Origin: Brachyhypopomus gauderio
Taxonomy: Eukaryota > Chordata > Actinopteri > Gymnotiformes > Hypopomidae
Direction: 5' to 3'
Assembly: GCF_052324685.1 (NCBI RefSeq)
Contig: NC_135212.1
Location: 2,071,001 to 2,135,000, forward strand
DNA: 64,000 nucleotides
Within the stretch, counting starts at the first letter, position 1. Each line of letters opens with the position of its first letter. The position numbers were made by a program, and so were the translations under genes. This document shows positions 31,501-51,158 of this stretch, piece after piece. The notes below the pieces were generated by a model. The model worked only from the letters and a program-made list of their open reading frames with translations. It ran no database searches and was not told the DNA's origin.

Positions 31501-31855
31501 TTTGAGCATTTACATATTAAGGGACCAGCTATTTGTGGTAATCTGAAACTGAATCATTTAAGTCATTCTCCAATTAATTAATAATAACACATTAAAACAA
31601 ATTAGCATCTAATAACTTTTGTTGGGTAAACTCTAAACTGGCTCTAAACAAACTGACATAAACACACAGCTTTATCAATTTAGGAATAGATGGGAATGTG
31701 TTAGCTAGTGGAGTCTGTTTAACGAGACACGTTTAAAATGTCACATCACAGACGTTATAACAGGGGATTTTTCACTCTAAGTCTTCTTTACTCCGCAACA
31801 TTAAACAGCGTGATCAACGTCTGTCCGTTGGGTGTTGTGAGATGGAGCTGAACGC

Positions 31856-31990
31856 ACACACGTGACAGTCTCTGACACGTGGGTTCCTTCTGCGGCGTTC
31901 CCAGTCACGTGACACATTGGCTCGCGCGCTGCCCACGCGACGGTGACGTATATTATACGCGACTGTGTTGATCCCAGCAGGACGTTATTG
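31856..31990 (+). promoter_or_regulatory. CpG-rich promoter with three E-boxes, upstream of the THAP-integrase gene
   Basis: CACGTG occurs three times within 53 bases (31859-31864, 31876-31881, 31906-31911). It is followed by a CG-rich stretch with a CRE-like GTGACGTA and an ATTATACGCG element. The ATG of the THAP gene is about 150 bases downstream. CACGTG sites bind USF/TFE/MYC-type bHLH factors, so this looks like a housekeeping-type promoter. Another CACGTG at 35505 precedes nmrk1. Confidence 0.55.
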
Positions 31991-32137
31991 AATTCAAAAA
32001 CAAGAGTCTCCGTGTTGGTGAACTAAGTGATAAACATCACTATAAAATTACAGCTTCGCCGTGAAACAAGAGCGTGTGAACGAGTATGTACTTTACAATG
32101 TGTGTAGCTAGATAGTTAGCTTTGGAGGAGAGACATA

Positions 32138-35100
32138 ATGGTGTTTTACTGCTGTGTGTATAAGTTTAAAAACAACACAAAGGACAAGAGTTTGGCGTTT
32201 CACAGGTGGGGGTGGATGTGTGACGCCAGCACTGATGTTTACAGGGTTACATCTCAGTGTGGACCTTCACCCAAGGGTCCTGCTGGCCAGCTGTGTGCCA
32301 TGTCTTGAGTGTTTTAGACTTAGATTTGTTTAATTCTGTTGTCTGTCTATCAATCTGTCTGTCTGACTGTCTGTCTGTCTGTGTGTAGCTTCCCAACAAA
32401 AGATTCGGAGTTGCGTAACAAATGGCTGAAGAACATGAGATGGAAAAACTGGACACCGGCGCCACATAGTAGAATATGTTCTAGACACTTTGAGAAAAGA
32501 TGTTATAGTCTTGTTGATGGGCCAAGAAGAAGACTTCATTCCTGGGCAGTTCCCACCATTTTCTCTTTCCCTGCTCATCTGCAGAACAGGATGGTCCGTC
32601 ACTCACACTGTGTATTGTTTAATAAGAAAGTTATTAAATGCTCTATTGTCTTTTGCCAAAAGATGAGTAGTACTGTATGTGAATTAAATCCTTTTTTTTT
32701 TCAGAGAAATATTAATCCCAGAAGTAGAAGGGCATTGGTGAGTTGTGCTATAGTTGTGTTTGTCTATTGGTCACATGTGTATTGAATGATTGCTGTCATA
32801 TAATGAGCCTCTGGCTTAATGGAGATCAAATTTCCTGCTTCACTTTTGATGCACAAAAAGCAACCCATAGAAGAGTCAGTCCTGTCCCTTCCTCCGAGAA
32901 GATCATCACACTGCAAACCTGCACCTGTAGCTTGTGACAGACTGAAACCAGCCGCACACAGCACTGCACAGGGGTCAGAAGAGCTCGGCTGCCAAAGTGA
33001 CCCAGAGTTCAGTGTGGAGGACGGACCAGACCCGGTGGCCCACCAGACCCTGGTAAAACCTGAAAAGAGGTCTGTTCATTTACATACCTGTCATGTGTTT
33101 CGGCCCACTAAAGTGTGTACTGTATGTGTGTAGCCTCTACTATGTAATCTCTATGCATGCAGCATTGTTATAATTACACAGTTAAGCTCACAGTGCCAGA
33201 TCTTGGGTTACAGTTTACTTGATTTAGCAATCATGATGTTAATGTCAATTTCCTCTTTGAAACATTTACATTTTGTCTCAGTCTAATGTGTTATGCCATT
33301 GTTCAGTCAAATTGTTTTTATCCTTACTTCCTGAACAGGCCGTGTCCTCCGTGGACAATCCTAGGAGATGAGTCTCTCGAGAGAACCATGACCATACCGA
33401 GTTTCTTTCACAGTGCCTACTGTTTGCCCAGGGTAATGTAATGTGCATCAGCTGCGTGTAGTTATGTAATGTATGTTCAGTTGTGAGTGAAGACAGTAAT
33501 GCTTTGGGTCCGTTCTTCATTGTTATGTTTTCTACTGTTTCTTTACTCTTCTACATTTCAGAGTTTTCACTGGGATGGAGACGCTGAATTAAATACTGTA
33601 AGTCACTTTATGTGAGACATAATCTATTAAATGCTTTTTTACAAGTGTAATCTGTTTCATTACTAATCATTCTTTGTGTTATAGATGCCACATGTAGTGT
33701 ATGGAGTCTCAGGACAAACAGAACCCAATATTATTGAGGTAGGAATAATCATGTCAGTATTTTCTTTATTCCTTCAGCGTCTTCATCAATGTCCCTCTAA
33801 TAAAACGTGAACACACCCCTTTATCTCAGGTCAGGGAGAGGTGGGAGTGGCTTGGTCTGGATGTGCGGGGGCCGTTTCCCATGACGGTGGGCGGGCATGT
33901 CCACATCATGACCCTGACGGACTATCACTCCAGATGGGTAGAAGCTTTTCCGCTGACCAGTGACGTGACGAGAGACGCTGCTGTGTGTCTGGCCGGGGTC
34001 GTCCTCCAGCTGGGATACCCTCTGGCTGTCCTCTCCAGGTTTCCCACAAGGCTCCTCGTAGACGTACGAAACACCTAGCTTTGGTTTTTCAGGATTGATG
34101 TGCATGTTATGCGAGTGTCATTACATACTGCAGTGCTTTTGTTTGTCAGATTAATCGAGATCTGAAAAAACACCTGAACATAAACACAAGCTCCCTGGTC
34201 ATACACCACCGCCAAACTGGATACTTGGACCAGGTGACCGAGTCCCTCCTTAACAAGTAAGTAATGCCCACTGTGCTGCAGCACGTTTTGAGGAGAAAAA
34301 AAAGTGTCTGGTGGTTCCTGGAAGGCAGTATGGTCTATCTTTCAGTTAGTGTTCCTATCTCAGCAGCACACACAAGGGCAGGTCAAAGAAGGGCGGGGCT
34401 TCTGTGTCTTCTGTCTCACGGTCTTCAGTGTGTGTGTTTGTGTGGATGACAGGATGGCCACCGAGCTGGTGACGGAGTATCCGGACACCTGGCACATCCA
34501 CCTGCCCGCTGCCTCCCTGCGCCTGTGCTGTACAGAGCACCCCAGCACCGGGACCAAGCCCTTTACTGTCATGTACTCCTCTGGCCCGGCCGTCTTCACC
34601 TCCCCCAGGGACCTACCTGTGAGTGGGATCCAGCCGCTCTCACTAGTCTCACTAGTTTCAGACACGGGTGAACCAAACCCAGGGCAGCTGCTATTTTGTG
34701 TTCTGTTAGTCTGTTGTTATTTGCACAAATATGCAAGCTTTAAAAATGCAGAGAATAAATAACAATGCAGAAATAGAGGCCCTATTAGACACACGTGCCT
34801 TGCACCAACATTTACTGGTCACTTCATTAGATAGGATTAGTAACACAGTAACATTGCTGGGTCTCAGTAAAAAAACATAATTAAAAACACATAAACAATG
34901 ACTGCATAAGCAATAAAAGAAAGTGTTTTGCAGTTAAGCGACTGATAGCCTGATATGTTGTATATGAAGTTCATTTTGTTCAGTTTTTTTTTGCATGTGT
35001 TGGTTTAATTGAGAATGGGTTTGTATTTCCAGTACAGCAGCTCTGACATCAGCCTGAGTTCCTTCGTGATTGCATCCAGTGAAGGCAGCAAAGAACCACT

Positions 35101-35453
35101 GAGCCCAGCAGAAACTGAGCCCAGTACCTCCAGTAAGAGGCTCACTGCTGCGTCAAACACCATGTTTACCCCTGACACCATTTCACCATTCTGTTCAAGA
35201 TAAAAAAAATATTGTCTGCCTAAATAGTGTTTTAAGTTAAGTGTAGCAGTATTTCAGCTGACCTACAGCTTGTTTAAATCTGATTTAAAGATAAAGGTAA
35301 ACCTGACATGAGCATTACTTTAGCAGTTTACATGAACTGTTTATTACAGTATTATGTATTGGGTTTTATTGCAGTCTTATTACTGTCTTATGTGCTGGTT
35401 TTTAAATATATCTCTTAGGTGTCCGAAAAGTTGACTTAACAGAAGTTCCCTAA
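32138..35453 (+). CDS. THAP zinc-finger / domesticated integrase fusion protein (GIN-like)
   Basis: Twelve exons (32138-32205, 32389-32593, 32705-32737, 32861-33069, 33339-33432, 33562-33597, 33685-33738, 33830-34063, 34150-34256, 34453-34618, 35033-35132, 35419-35453) join in phase to 446 aa. Residues 1 to about 90 are a THAP domain: the CC pair in MVFYCCVYK, then FHSFP, W in RNKWLKNM, and CSRHFE. This gives the C2CH zinc ligands of this DNA-binding fold, itself related to P-element transposases. Residues from about 235 match a gypsy/GIN-type integrase core: WEWLGLDVRGPF, DYHSRWVEAFPL, then VLSRFP, HHRQTGYLDQVTESLLNK and a tail with PDTWHIHL. The first acidic catalytic residue is kept. The SDxG aspartate is replaced (SRFP) and the last glutamate position reads aspartate, so strand transfer is unlikely. 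Introns and intact frames across 12 exons point to a host gene, probably a DNA-binding regulator. It could be the vertebrate GIN2 lineage; I am not certain. The exon 2 donor (ATG|GTCCGT) is the weakest junction. Confidence 0.85.
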
Positions 35454-36446: not shown

Positions 36447-39400
36447 ATGAAGAGGTTCATAATTGGAATCGGGGGGTAAGTGTATTTTATGTTATGAAGA
36501 TTTGCTCCTCATTGTACCTGATCCATCTTAGATGTTCCTCAGGGTTGACTGTTGGTTTTGTTGTAGGGTGACCAATGGGGGCAAGAGCACGCTGAGCAGA
36601 AATCTCCATAAAGTTCTCCCCAACAGTTGTATTATTTCTCAAGATTCATTCTTCAAAGTAATCACCTTTTATCACCTTATTGATATTAGAAACTAAGTTA
36701 CTGGATGTCTCGCTGTTATTACTGCGAATCCTAAAAAACTCTCAACATTTTGACCAACTCTGTGCTCCATCCCAGGACGACTCCATGGTCCCAACCGACA
36801 GTCGTGGATTTAAGCAATACGACAGTAAGAACTTGTGTTTTGGCAACCTGAATTATGAGTAAGACATAAAAGTCCTTCTTAAAATCGCCCACCGAATGCA
36901 ATGTCTTAATTATGCTGTATGTTTACAGGTATACAGCCAAATGTTTTTGTTATTGGAATATTAAAGGGATACTTCAGCACAAGATTAAGTTTGCACTTTT
37001 CCACATACTCTAAACTAAATGTGGTTAATCAGCAAAGGTATGTTTGGTAACTCATCTGTCCTTTACTAGTTTGGCACTAGAACTCTGAGGCTGACTTAGC
37101 TAGCTAGCATTGTAATTCATTACATCTTTTCCATAAATCCATGCGCAAATCTTTACAAATTTACTGAATCTTGTTCCTAAAGAATTTCATGCAGGACTGC
37201 TTGTGTATTTTGAGATGCTGTAACACTGTAGTATAAATATAAGCACAATTCTGAACAAAACATATCTGAACACTAATGTGTTCAGAGTGCTATCTTGTGT
37301 GGCCAGACTATCTTTCTCTCAGCTCTTTCTGTGGTATCTGCAGTATGATAAGAGGTGGCGTCATGAATTCACAACATAGACGTATGGTAGACCACTGATA
37401 AGCTAAGTGAGTGTGATGTAGTCAAACCGCCCGAATGTCAGGTTGTCAGGTGGTAAGGAGTTCAACCTCAGACTTGTGGGCAAAATGTTCAGTTTCAGTT
37501 GGACCTCGATCATCAGACGTTCTGTCAGTTACCAAACATGCTGTGGCTGATGCACTACATTTGAGGTGAGGGAGAAAACGGCGTTTTTAGTGAACTGGTT
37601 TTCTGAATGACGGGTGTTGTTCACATTACAGCTCTGGATGCCCTGCAAATGGACAGGATGATGAGTGAAATCAGTTCTTGGCAGCAAGACCCTCAGAACT
37701 TCATGCTCTCCAAAGCCAAGAGCTTCATATCAGAAGGGACGAGAGTATTTTCTCTTATAGTGGAAGGTTTTCTCATCTTTAATTATAGGTAATTCACCCG
37801 GTCCCTCTGGTTCTCAACTTGTGGGTCTCAGTAGCAATTCAAAACATGGGCTTTGAAAAAAACTGCTTCAGTAGAACGCTACAGATGTGGGCTGGAGATG
37901 TGAGCTGGTATTTCCTGCGTCATAAGGGCCTCACTACCGTGATGTTCATCTTCAGCTCTAAGGGTTCACCTGCACTAGTGTAAATAGGAAGTTACCCATG
38001 ACCACCATTCTTCAATTAATGAGCCTATCAAACTACAGTGATCGGTTAATTCATGTCAATATGTTCTATTTCCAGTCCCTTGAACACGTTATTCGACAAG
38101 AGATACTTCCTGCAAATACCCTACGAGGCGTGTAAGCTGCGTAGAAGGTGAGGTTAACGTGAAGGTGGGGGGAAGGTGGGGGGGGGGGTGAGGAGAAGGT
38201 TGGGGGTAGATGGGGTAAAGGTGAGGGGTAGGTGAAGGTGAGGAAGGTGAAGGTGGGGGTAGATAAGGAGAAGGTGAAGGTGAGGAAGGTGAAGGTGGGG
38301 GGTAGATAAGGGGTAGGTGAAGGTGGGGGGTAGATAAGGAGAAGGTGAAGGTGAGGAAGGTGAAGGTGGGGGGTAGATAAGGAGAAGGTGAAGGTGGGGT
38401 AGGTGAAGGTGGGGGGTAGATAAGGAGAAGGTGAAGGTGAGGAAGGTGAAGGTGGGGGGTAGATAAGGAGAAGGTGAAGGTGGGGTAGGTGAAGGTGGGG
38501 GGTAGATAAGGAGAAGGTGAAGGTGAGGAAGGTGAAGGTGGGGGGTAGATAAGGGGTAGGTGAAGGTGGGGTAGGTGAAGGTGGGGGGTAGATAAGGGGT
38601 AGGTGAAGGTGGGGTAGGTGAAGGTGGGGGGTAGATAAGGGGTAGGTGAAGGTGGGGTAGGTGAAGGTGGGGGGTAGATAAGGAGAAGGTGAAGGTGAGG
38701 AAGGTGAAGGTGGGGGGTAGATAAGGAGAAGGTGAAGGTGAGGAAGGTGAAGGTGGGGGGTAGATGAGGAGAAGGTGAAGGTGGGGGGTAGATAAGGGGT
38801 AGGTGAAGGTGGGGTAGGTGAAGGTGGGGTAGGTGAAGGTGGGGGGTGAATAAGGGGTAGGTGAAGGTGAGGAAGGTGAAGGTGGGGGGTAGATAAGGAG
38901 AAGGTGAAGGTGAGGAAGGTGAAGGTGGGGGGTAGATAAGGAGAAGGTGAAGGTGAGGAAGGTGAAGGTGGGGGGTAGATAAGGAGAAGGTGAAGGTGAG
39001 GAAGGTGAAGGTGGGGGGTAGATGAGGAGAAGGTGAAGGTGGGGGGTAGATAAGGGGTAGGTGAAGGTGGGGTAGGTGAAGGTGGGGTAGGTGAAGGTGG
39101 GGGGTAAATAAGGGGTAGGTGAAGGTGGGGTAGGTGAAGGTGGGGGGTAAATAAGGGGTAGGTGAAGGTGGGGTAGGTGAAGGTGGGGGGTAGATAAGGG
39201 GTAGGTGAAGGTGAGGAAGGTGAAGGTGGGGGGTAGATAAGGGGTAGGTGAAGGTGAGGAAGGTGAAGGTGGGGGGAAGGTGAAGGTGCTGCAATGGTTC
39301 TGACCTCATATTGTTATGGGAAGCTATTGATCACTTGTCGTTCAATTAACAGCTCAAGGGTGTATGTGCCTCCGGACCCCATCGGTTACTTCGACGGGCA

Positions 39401-39775
39401 TGTTTGGCCCATGTATCTTAAAAATAGAAGAGAGATGGAGGACACAGTGCGAGACATTGGTCAGTATCACAGCACCTTGTGTTTCTGTCCTTTTAAGGAC
39501 GGATCTACAGTGAAGATGGATGATATTCTAGATCAGTGGTCACAAGGGCCTCACTAGCTAGTAATGTGAAGGTCATTGTAGAGGTTTTGTAAATCTGATG
39601 CAACCTTGAAATTGAAATAAATGGAAACATGAATACCAATTCAAAATGCAAAACTGTTCTCCAATGCATTTTTGCTCTTTATTCAGTGTTCTTAGATGGG
39701 ACTCAGAAGAAAGAGGTGTTGCTCACCAGTGTTTATAAAGACATCCAGCAGATTCTTCAAACTATTCAGAAATGA
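36447..39775 (+). CDS. nmrk1: Nicotinamide riboside kinase 1-like
   Basis: Seven exons (36447-36475, 36567-36657, 36776-36824, 37632-37788, 38076-38147, 39353-39459, 39687-39775) join in phase to 197 aa, close to the length of human NMRK1. The protein phosphorylates nicotinamide riboside to NMN in the cytosolic NAD+ salvage pathway. The N-terminus MKRFIIGIGGVTNGGKST holds the P-loop (GGVTNGGKS). CIISQDSFFK and GFKQYD are substrate-side motifs; the usual DDFFK reads DSFFK here. LIVEGFLIFNY is the Walker B-like strand. YFLQIPYEACKLRR is the lid, and PDPIGYFDGHVWPMYLK is the family signature near the C-terminus. The C-terminal half is nearer to NMRK1 (VYVPPDPIGYFDGHVWPMYL) than to NMRK2. Intron 5 is filled by a G-rich minisatellite. 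The D-to-S change in DDFFK deserves checking, as the first Asp is kept (QDSFFK). Confidence 0.93.
38148..39292 (+). repeat. G-rich minisatellite filling nmrk1 intron 5
   Basis: Tandem, irregular units are built from GGTGAAGGTG, GGTGAGGAA, GGTGGGGTA and GGGGGGTAGATAAGGA. Super-units of roughly 50-110 bases recur about 15-20 times. The array starts exactly at the exon 5 splice donor (GAAG|GTGAGG), and AAGGTGAGG recurs at least a dozen times inside. The RNA-like strand is G-rich with many runs of four to six G, so G-quadruplex or R-loop formation is plausible. A 406-codon open frame on the opposite strand (38089-39309) is a repeat artefact. Confidence 0.95.
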
Positions 39776-41907: not shown

Positions 41908-44123
41908 ATGCGAGCGCTGCGTGCGAGCCTGTGCATCACTGCGGCCCTCCTGGGCGCCTGCAGAGCCTCGGCGTGGACGGGTGAGAACCGCCTCCTTCGT
42001 TAGCGACTCCTTTCTTAGCAGCTCTGCTTCACACAACAGTCGCTTTTCGTCAAAAGGAAAAAAGAGACGTGTGTTCAGATTTTACATTTACACATTCAGC
42101 CCTGAAGTCGGTTTCCTTTAGAGCTTGAGAGTTTGGATAATGCGACCTAAGTGTATATGCCTGCAAAACATATTCTTGTTACTAACTTCTGGTTCTTTGC
42201 ATCAAAAATATTTGAACCCATTTTCAGCTGTGCAGAAAACTCAGCTTAGTTAATTAATTTTAAAAAATCGTAGAATACCTTTAAACCTTTTAATTAATTT
42301 ATTGAGGAAGATTAAATTAGTTCTTGCATAATGAAATGCTTTACTCATTCTAGAATCATCTTTACTCTTAACTATGGCATATACTAAGACTGAAACTCTG
42401 TAAAGTTGACAGAGGAGGAGTCTCAAAAATGCAACTGATACCTATACATATAAACATCATAAATATGAATGTGTTGTCTATGCACTGTAGTAAGGATTAT
42501 AAATGGTTAATATATGCAATTATACCCATACAGGAGAGGGGTTTAGAATTTTGTACTGTCACTTTGACCTGTTTATATATTTAGAAAGTCCTTCCAACCT
42601 TGAGACAAACATTCAGTTTATTTATTTATTCTGTCTTAGATTAAAGCTACTGATCAGGTAAAGCAAGAGAATGTGGTCTTATATCTGTGGCTATTCGAGT
42701 AGGTGTATTTTTCTGTATGTGTTAAGCCACAATTAAGTCAATTGAGTAACATGCAGCCCACTAATGATGCTCATGTGTGCCAGGTCATTGGCCACCTGCA
42801 TGTATTGGTTAGTCATGTCAGTCATGTCAGTAATTGAGAGAGACAGTGTGGGGCACACGATGGTCAGTAGGCGGACAAGTTTCAATCATTTGAAGGCTAA
42901 ATCATCAGCAAGTGTAATCAAGCGTTCCAGATGAAGTGTAGCGCACCTCTGTCTCAGTTCTTCTATCGTTTCATAGATGACAGTGTTTGTCCTCAAAATG
43001 TTGACCATTTGATCTTCCTTTAACTTTAACTAATCTGAGTTGTTTATTGCCAACCTCGGCGGTAGCAGAATAGCAGTAAAAAATGTTTTGAACATTGCCA
43101 TGTATTTACACAGACTCTTCAGTGGACAGTGATCGTGTTATAAAGCCAGAAGGAGAGACTCTGACCATGGAATGCATTTGGAAGGAGAAACCGAGGGGTT
43201 TATATGTCTACGTCAGACGTCCAAAGAAACTTGAAGTGTTATACTATCATTTCAGTAATCAGAAGTTAACTGAAAATAAAGAGTACACAGGAAGACTGAA
43301 CATCAGTAATAACGTGAACAAAATCACCATAGCACTCACAGACCTGCAAATGAAGGATTCTGGTCTGTACTCATGTGTATTCAACAGAATGGATGAAAAT
43401 ATACAACTCGTGGAAGAGGTCGGAGGTCATGTTTTCCTCTTCGTGAGAGGTGAGTACCCCCCCCTTCCCCGATTGTGGCCTGATAGTATTCCCGTGTCAG
43501 TACGGACTCAGCCGTATATCATACCCTGCTTCTCTCAATGTAAATGACACACTGTCTAAAAATCATTGTGATAAAAACACAAACGATAGGTTTGAAGGCC
43601 TGCAAGTTCTGGATTAGTAGTGTGACGTAAGTGGTTTTCTGCAGAGAGTTCTGCAGAGAGATGTCCAGTGAGTGAATCTGCAGCTGTCCCCGAGTCACTG
43701 GTGCTGCTGTTAGTAGTGACGGCGTGTGCAGTCCTGCTGCTGTGTGCCGTGGCCGTGGTGGTGTGGATGGGGCCCAAGGTGAGCACAGCGCGAGTGAACT
43801 GTTGTGTTTTGGAGCTAAATGTGCATTTGCATATGGGGATGTTGAGTGTGTGAGAGAGCTTCTGCTTACATCTCGAGTTCACATGCTAGGTTCACACATC
43901 GATTGCACAAATGTGCATTTCCCGACAAGCAACCCACTTTGTGCTTTCCACTAGCGTGTGGTTTTGACTTTAAAATCTAGAATCTCTGACTCATGTGAAA
44001 TGTGACATTTGCTTTTGTGTTTAGGTGAAGGCCCTGTGTCTGAGTGGGGGAGAAAATGTGTCCAGGACAAATAACTCTGTCTATGAAGATATGCGTGTCC
44101 ACCGTGTGCAGCTAAAGGACTGA
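41908..44123 (+). CDS. CD7-like single-Ig transmembrane receptor, copy 1
   Basis: Four exons (41908-41980, 43114-43449, 43645-43778, 44025-44123), joining at phases 1, 1 and 0, encode 213 aa. MRALRASLCITAALLGACR is the signal peptide. Exon 2 is one V-type Ig domain with the disulphide cysteines in TMECIW and GLYSC and the DSGLYSC motif. Exon 3 holds a short stalk and a membrane helix (LVLLLVVTACAVLLLCAVAVVVW). Exon 4 is a short cytoplasmic tail with VKALC and NNSVYEDMRVHR. Human CD7 has the same order and a tail with IKKLC...VVYEDMSHSR; its YEDM is a YxxM docking site for PI3-kinase. A T/NK-cell costimulatory receptor role is inferred by homology. Exon 3 has two candidate acceptors (before 43645 or 43657), giving a 4-residue difference. 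A paralogue lies 8 kb downstream. Confidence 0.85.
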
Positions 44124-50003: not shown

Positions 50004-51158
50004 ATGGTTGTCAGGATGTGGAGTCTGGGGGTAACGCTGGCTGTCCCCGCTCTCCTCCACCTGTCCTTGCTGAGAGCAGGTCAGAAATACAACATTTATT
50101 GGATGCATTTTGGTTCAATTTTGTGCAAGCGTCTACTTCAGGCACACTTGGCATTTGAATTGCACTCAATATCTCTGAATCTTAACATGTCTTTCCACAG
50201 CCTCTGCAAAGCAGAGCGGCGCCGTTATGAAGAAACGAGGAGATGTTTTGACCATGGAGTGCACAATGGAGAAAGACCAAGAGAGAGTTCATCTCACCGT
50301 GACACGCCCCAAAATGCACACCGTGCGGTTTCAATACGACGGCAACACAAAGCAGCTGGACTGCGGTGAGGAGTACAGACCGAGAGTGAGAAGCAGACGG
50401 GACCTGACAGGACTCACCGTCCGCATCTCTGACCTGCAGCCGGCCGACTCAGGGCTGTACACGTGCAACAGTACACGGAAGGACAATGGAGCGGAGGGAA
50501 ATGATGTATTTCTGATAGTGCAAGGTGAGTCTATACCTGCCTTTATATCTGAGTCACTCTCACAACATCAGCAGCAACCCAACAGTCTGTTAGTATGGTG
50601 AACGCTGATGCACACTATAAGTCCACATTTTAATCTATTTTTAGACTGCTCTAAATGTTGAATTAATAGTGACCGACCGAAGTGTTCTGCAGAGGGATGT
50701 TTTGAGAAGAAGGGTGCAGCTGTCTCCAAGTCACTGGTGCTGCTGTTAGTAGTGACGGCGTGTGCAGTCCTGCTACTGTGTGCCGTGGCCGTGGTGGTGT
50801 GGATGGGGCCCAAGGTGAGCACAGCACAAGTGAACTGTCATGGTGTTTTGGAGCTAAATGTGCATTTGCATATGGGGATGTTGAGTGTGTGAGAATGTGT
50901 CGGAGAGCTTCTGCTTTACATGTTCCTGTGTTACCTTCACACATTGAGAGCATATATATTTATTTCCTGACAACTGACTTTGTACTTTCTACTTACATGT
51001 GGTTTTGCCTTTACAAGCAAGAATCTCCCACTTATCTGAAATGTGACATTTGCTTTCGTGTTTAGGTGAAGGCCCTGTGTCGGGGAGAAAATGTGTCCAG
51101 AACAAATAACTCCGTCTATGAAGATATGCGCGTCCGTCGTGCGCAGCTAATGGACTGA
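50004..51158 (+). CDS. CD7-like single-Ig transmembrane receptor, copy 2
   Basis: Four exons (50004-50079, 50201-50524, 50693-50814, 51066-51158) at phases 1, 1 and 0 encode 204 aa. There is a signal peptide (MWSLGVTLAVPALLHLSLL within residues 5-23). The V-type Ig domain has its cysteines in TMECTM and GLYTC plus an additional cysteine in QLDCGEEY. The stalk begins EGCFEKKG. The membrane helix (LVLLLVVTACAVLLLCAVAVVVW) is identical to copy 1, and the tail again contains VKALC and NNSVYEDMRVRR. The near-identical exons 3-4 against divergent Ig exons indicate tandem duplication with diversification, or gene conversion, of the ligand-binding part. As with copy 1, the YEDM motif suggests PI3-kinase coupling as in mammalian CD7. 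The ATG at 50004 was chosen as the first in frame; an ATG at 50016 would also give a signal peptide. Confidence 0.85.

Follow-up and report, generated by a model that had tools for sequence, protein, structure and literature searches.

A candidate host gene of Brachyhypopomus gauderio joining THAP1-like exons to a catalytically dead Ginger1-type integrase core

Described genes with Ginger1, integrase or THAP parts

Two vertebrate exaptations of Ginger1, GIN1 and GIN2, are described in the accessible parts of PMC2836005 and PMC3424704. Fish GIN2 has OGFOD2 and ABCB9 as its neighbours on either side; it retains an HHCC finger and is without a full catalytic triad, the second D being absent, a D standing four residues on and aspartate replacing the glutamate (PMC3424704). 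A GPY/F module is ascribed to GIN proteins in the same source, and introns are common to Ginger1-5_HM, Gin-1 and Gin-2 (PMC2836005). Ginger1 itself was reported in 2010 from hydra, sea hare, lancelet and aphid (PMC2836005), and relics are recorded from alligator, turtle, coelacanth and frog (PMC9004415). In malacostracan crustaceans, Imagin likewise derives from a Ginger1 transposase by domestication, and its DDE core is defunct; the shrimp version carries YPYY and H2C2, and THAP is unmentioned in the accessible part of PMC12863088.

Further host genes carry one part or the other. KRBA2, SCAND3 and NYNRIN are mammalian host genes with an rve core, joined to other partners and listed as retroelement-derived, and THAP0/PRKRIR joins THAP to another transposase, listed under hAT (accessible parts of PMC3257199 and PMC3985635); all four were compared by description only. 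Hydra THAP genes carry P-element, DDE_Tnp_4 or retrotransposon parts, an rve signature occurs in CENPB and HTH-Psq genes of invertebrates, and no THAP joined to a Ginger1/GIN core is named among the invertebrate transposon-derived transcription factors in the accessible part of PMC10027918. A search of the open-access literature by title and abstract start found no THAP-integrase or THAP-GIN fusion.

The locus studied here lies at 32138-35453 on the forward strand of the window, by which we mean the whole 64,000-nucleotide stretch that was analysed. It is probably a single-locus host gene, independent of GIN2, in which THAP1-like 5′ exons run into three Ginger1-type core exons, as judged from the sequence. 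Like GIN2, it has a Ginger1-type core in an intron-rich host gene, has lost the second D and carries the intron between exons 8 and 9 (8/9) that is common to both (PMC3424704, PMC2836005). It differs in that GIN2 has H2C2, YPYY and D for the glutamate, with no THAP found at its locus, whereas in the window gene those modules were not found, the glutamate column reads Q and NMRK1 adjoins. Its core is 32-37% identical to that of Ginger1 transposons over 103-166 columns and three core introns match theirs, but the transposon copies keep YPYY, H2C2 and GPY/F, while none of these was found in the window gene, which has a THAP part. With THAP1 and THAP2 it shares the THAP domain, and its first intron has the position and phase of THAP1 c.71; unlike them, it has F for the second zinc cysteine and an integrase core downstream.

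The gene model and its two modules

The gene model comprises 12 exons in a single reading frame throughout, all with GT-AG borders, between a probable promoter and a poly(A) signal:

31750..31999, forward strand: CpG-rich stretch, probable promoter shortly before the THAP start codon; CpG observed/expected 1.32
32138..32205, forward strand: exon 1, THAP N-terminus MVFYCC...AFH; phase 2 at its end
32389..32593, forward strand: exon 2, remainder of the THAP domain; CSRHF, AVPTIF
32705..32737, forward strand: exon 3, basic stretch RNINPRSRRAL, C-terminal to THAP
32861..33069, forward strand: exon 4, linker; 5′ border uncertain (32861, 32972 or 33047)
33339..33432, forward strand: exon 5, linker; H2C2 not detected in it
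33562..33597, forward strand: exon 6, linker
33685..33738, forward strand: exon 7, linker; its 3′ border is the intron common to Ginger1 copies
33830..34063, forward strand: exon 8, first half of the integrase core; D kept, second D replaced by R
34150..34256, forward strand: exon 9, integrase core; catalytic E column is Q
34453..34618, forward strand: exon 10, final portion of the integrase core
35033..35132, forward strand: exon 11, tail rich in serine and glutamate; GPY/F not found in it
35419..35453, forward strand: exon 12, C-terminus and stop codon
35914..35919, forward strand: poly(A) signal AATAAA, downstream of exon 12

If exon 8 ends at 34063, the 12 exons total 1341 bases, or 446 aa plus the stop, laid out from N to C as THAP domain, linker, decayed Ginger1/GIN-type integrase core and short tail. 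An exon 8 end at 34057 (444 aa) was dropped, since 34063 fits the Ginger intron and yields 446 aa; the 444-aa model was the query in the Pfam, PDB and own-genome core and THAP searches. Splice sites were scored with textbook tables. Nine of the 11 acceptors fell in the top 14% of sites and nine of the 11 donors in the top 15%; the acceptor of exon 3 was within the top 0.1% and its donor within the top 4.6%. Exon 4 has a weak acceptor at 32861, with a score of -8.2 that was matched or beaten by 77% of AG sites at 28-48 kb. In-frame acceptors at 32972 and 33047 score better and either would shorten the linker, the intron between exons 3 and 4 being 123, 234 or 309 bases long according to the acceptor chosen. 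As 21,132 in-frame chains were enumerated from exon 2 to exon 5, matching phases do little by themselves to establish the fusion. The original prediction of 12 exons without phase conflict encoding 446 aa thus held for the frame, all exons having GT-AG borders, and proved weaker than claimed at the exon 4 acceptor.

The Pfam THAP model, whose cut-off is 23.9 bits, matched residues 5-81 (exons 1-3) with 61.4-65.2 bits (E 9.3e-18), bearing out the predicted N-terminal THAP domain, and the closest solved structures to this part in the PDB search were THAP2 (2d8r, E 2.1e-14) and THAP1. Alignment showed that the zinc ligands C5, C53 and H56 are present and that position 10 is F, so that the second cysteine is lost and the C2CH set is incomplete; this cysteine was kept in 9/9 comparison THAP loci, the best-scoring ones of the own genome. 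The motif [DE]HxY, which we take to be the HCF-1 binding motif, is absent from the 446-aa protein. The next THAP matches in the own genome reached 32-47% identity (best E 2e-12) among the best 150 candidates scored. Separately, contigs C9, C14 and C22 hold clusters of equal-scoring THAP-bearing open frames, many per contig, among the matches listed.

The first intron bears on where the THAP part came from. Exon 1 ends in phase 2 right behind the FH motif, and in the alignment human THAP1 carries one more residue ahead of the c.71 point than the window protein. Intron 1 of human THAP1 starts after c.71, as read from a variant name in PMC4049367; the intron of the window gene therefore coincides with it. 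The closest THAP copies elsewhere in the genome have an uninterrupted open frame across this site. From this one intron, duplication of a THAP1-like host gene would be favoured over fresh P-element capture as the source of the THAP exons. Where the original prediction saw a transposon-derived module, the THAP part, with an intron at THAP1 c.71, looks more like a host THAP1-like gene than a fresh transposon capture.

Exons 8-10 matched integrases, with Ty3 integrase as the best integrase of the PDB search (E 0.001); PDB chains named integrase at E 0.04-0.18 are presumably foamy virus. The Pfam rve score lay under threshold (12.4-13.4 versus a cut-off of 32.6 bits), so that a profile-based annotation might show THAP alone. 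Exon 8 was 46% identical to one Ginger1-type core exon over 65 residues and 32-41% identical to seven Ginger copies across the aligned exon, and three exon modules of one Ginger1-type copy matched the window core with z of 25.9, 5.5 and 10.9 over shuffled controls. Relatives of exon 8 were not found in the prokaryote-genome and viral-contig collections, and a fold prediction from exon 8 with the seven Ginger exons was uninformative (mean pLDDT 50.5).

Alignment with the own genome's Ginger1-type copies gave D-R-Q (D at 33860-33862, R at 34037-34039, Q at 34231-34233) in place of the D, D-35-E triad of an active DDE integrase. The retained first acidic residue and the lost SDxG aspartate had both been predicted correctly. 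The glutamate position had been said to read aspartate; this was mistaken, because LDQ aligns with LDE of the Ginger copies, so that the column is Q and the aspartate in question lies just ahead of it, where the Ginger copies have a D too. These copies carry the second D in 7/8 and the E in 6/6 legible exons. With this triad, the core would not be expected to catalyse strand transfer, in agreement with the earlier proposal of one locus in which a THAP module precedes a catalytically dead integrase core.

Other features were observed elsewhere in the window. A 21.5-kb array of the 15-base unit ACCAGTGTCTGTATA (94% matches) occupies 3980-25499. Exons like those of nicotinamide riboside kinase 1 (NMRK1) lie at 36532-39772, with a G-rich minisatellite among them at 38310-39283. 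Two V-set immunoglobulin exons at 43092-43544 and 50179-50598, about 7 kb apart, are perhaps a tandem receptor family.

Origin of the core and its relation to GIN2

We took 11 loci around Ginger matches in the own genome (L021-L031), among which L021, L022, L024, L025 and L027-L031 are intron-bearing Ginger1-type copies in this fish genome with YPYY, H2C2, DDE and GPY/F parts. A module survey of 10 Ginger-region loci found the core exon in 8/10, the YPYY exon in 7/10, the H2C2 exon in 7/10 and GPY/F in 6/10. In the window gene, intron 7/8 precedes the core, 8/9 follows the second-acid region and 9/10 follows the glutamate region; their codons and phases (0, 0 and 2) agree with those of Ginger1-type copies. 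Four copies were read for introns (L022, L025, L027 and L029) and each intron was legible in three of them: the first and second in L025, L027 and L029, the third in L022, L025 and L029. L022 has no AG ahead of the core exon, and L027 has no matching acceptor for the third intron.

A search of 31.5-36.5 kb for the YPYY, H2C2 and GPY/F modules found nothing with E under 10, and remnants of H2C2 or GPY/F in exons 5-7 or 11-12 scored no better than shuffles. Ginger-like terminal inverted repeats were not found in 29.5-38 kb, where just short, mostly AT-rich inverted repeats occur. Among the best 150 candidates scored in the own genome, no second close copy of the core or of the THAP part appeared, the next exon-sized core matches having 35-58% identity (best E 5e-12); the locus is thus without two hallmarks of a mobile Ginger1, terminal inverted repeats and more than a single close locus. 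A THAP-bearing Ginger transposon was rejected as the direct ancestor, as no THAP match at E 1e-3 occurred in the 11 loci.

We identified a canonical GIN gene in the same genome, at C68:255456-258447, flanked by ABCB9 and an OGFOD2-like gene. The ABCB9 matches span C68:243972-248850, with exons at 243972-246577 and an N-terminal exon at 248083-248850 that matched ABCB9 in the PDB (E 9e-29); the OGFOD2-like gene lies at about C68:259525-260522, some 11 kb upstream of ABCB9, with its Pfam domain at 65.2 bits. This GIN2 carries CxxC besides exons for YPYY and for H2C2 (44.6 bits to Pfam Integrase_H2C2), and its core reads CSQSADF and ALYD, fitting the published fish GIN2 pattern. THAP was not found nearby (C68:248001-262000, best match E 1.0). 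Its intron corresponding to 8/9 of the window gene reads GAAGAG/gtaaaa ... ccag/GTGACT in phase 0. Much of the intron before its last core exon is a minisatellite, with a short unit in all three frames (L048 ~1764-2900, C68).

These data were used to weigh the two other origins that the core might have. Derivation from a gypsy LTR retrotransposon, as put forward in the original prediction, would fit the 25-27% identity of the window core to gypsy integrases of the own genome and the top rank of Ty3 among integrases in the PDB search. Three introns at Ginger1 positions and the closer identity of the Ginger copies argue against it, as does the finding that many gypsy-type matches each occupy one uninterrupted frame 1,000-2,400 codons long (among the best 150 candidates scored); we disfavoured this source and regard it as very unlikely. 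The core tree gave the window core no firm placement (branch length 1.35), with 67.5/41 support for the split separating it from the Ginger/GIN group. By the shared introns, we judged that the core would be of the Ginger1 (DNA transposon) rather than the gypsy LTR type, so that the predicted gypsy/GIN-type core survives as a gypsy/Ginger-like integrase core, with a gypsy LTR origin disfavoured. Whether the gene belonged to the known GIN2 lineage had also been left open, and a GIN2 orthologue that relocated and gained a new THAP exon set would account for the common 8/9 intron and for a triad that is incomplete in fish GIN2 as well (accessible part of PMC3424704). This orthology was refuted by the ABCB9-GIN2-OGFOD2 locus, where canonical GIN2 resides with its H2C2 and YPYY, whereas the window gene is on contig C2, upstream of the NMRK1-like exons; we give it hardly any credence. 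Moreover, the window core is 25.5% identical to the own GIN2 core, no closer than to gypsy, versus 32-37% to Ginger copies, and the core introns differ, GIN2 sharing 8/9 alone and having two core introns of its own; an old GIN2 duplicate should have kept these private introns. Compared with the GIN2 pattern, the second D is absent as in GIN2, but there is no D at +4 and Q stands for E; neither the H2C2 zinc finger nor GPY/F, both GIN2 traits, was detected in the window gene. The comparison with GIN1 and GIN2 suggested with the original prediction gave core identities of 25.5% for GIN2 and 21% for a provisional human GIN1 sequence.

A probable single gene and its proposed function

The structure of the locus also leaves room for two adjacent genes or transcripts, with exons 1-3 forming a short THAP gene and the rest a Ginger1-derived gene starting from its own ATG. 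The poor acceptor (32861) of exon 4, the in-frame ATG that stands ahead of this exon at 32819 and ATTAAA variants at 32633 and 32683 (intron 2), 33588 and 33626 are consistent with such an arrangement, and the own GIN2 without nearby THAP indicates that a GIN-type gene needs no THAP. However, a second promoter finds no CpG-rich stretch in 32250-33749, where CpG observed/expected is 0.11-0.46 in six bins, and AATAAA is absent from the end of exon 3 to 33799. Exons 3 and 4 are tightly spaced, and the better in-frame acceptors at 32972 and 33047 offer a splice route that avoids the weak site. We consider two genes unlikely and infer from the sequence that the THAP and core exons would lie on one mRNA. 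A decaying relic, in which a Ginger1 copy inserted beside a THAP fragment and is by chance still stop-free, appears less probable still. The missing H2C2, YPYY and GPY/F, the lost zinc ligand and the long branch in the core tree would suit a relic. In a neutral drift simulation with substitutions only, 169 codons drifting to 45% identity stayed stop-free with probability 0.027; this too leaves the relic some room, and the open core alone is no proof of selection. A relic would hardly be expected to retain 12 exons in frame, splice sites of the ranks given above and a THAP domain of 61-65 bits, and terminal inverted repeats of an inserted copy were not found. Besides the open core, the THAP score and the joining of all 12 exons also count towards selection.

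Returning to a single host gene, we lean slightly towards a Ginger1 exaptation separate from those of GIN1 and GIN2, with the YPYY and H2C2 parts swapped for host THAP exons and their promoter and intron, giving a dead THAP-integrase regulator. Its protein would most likely be a catalytically dead nuclear adaptor. With H2C2, YPYY and GPY/F undetectable, THAP is the sole part recognised as binding nucleic acids, and one of its zinc ligands is replaced. This module, whose zinc binding is perhaps changed as a result, would position the protein on DNA or chromatin, taking over from the lost H2C2 finger. The dead RNase-H-like core might then provide a surface for interaction or pairing while no strand transfer takes place, and a protein-protein role would remain if THAP no longer binds zinc.

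If this is true, a third Ginger1 exaptation with a swapped DNA-binding end would mean that the core was recruited repeatedly. The canonical GIN2 in the same genome serves as an internal control, and since Ginger1-type relatives with matching introns occur in that genome as well, the path from transposon to gene should be traceable. The gene would also let the role of a dead integrase core without its own DNA-binding parts be asked.
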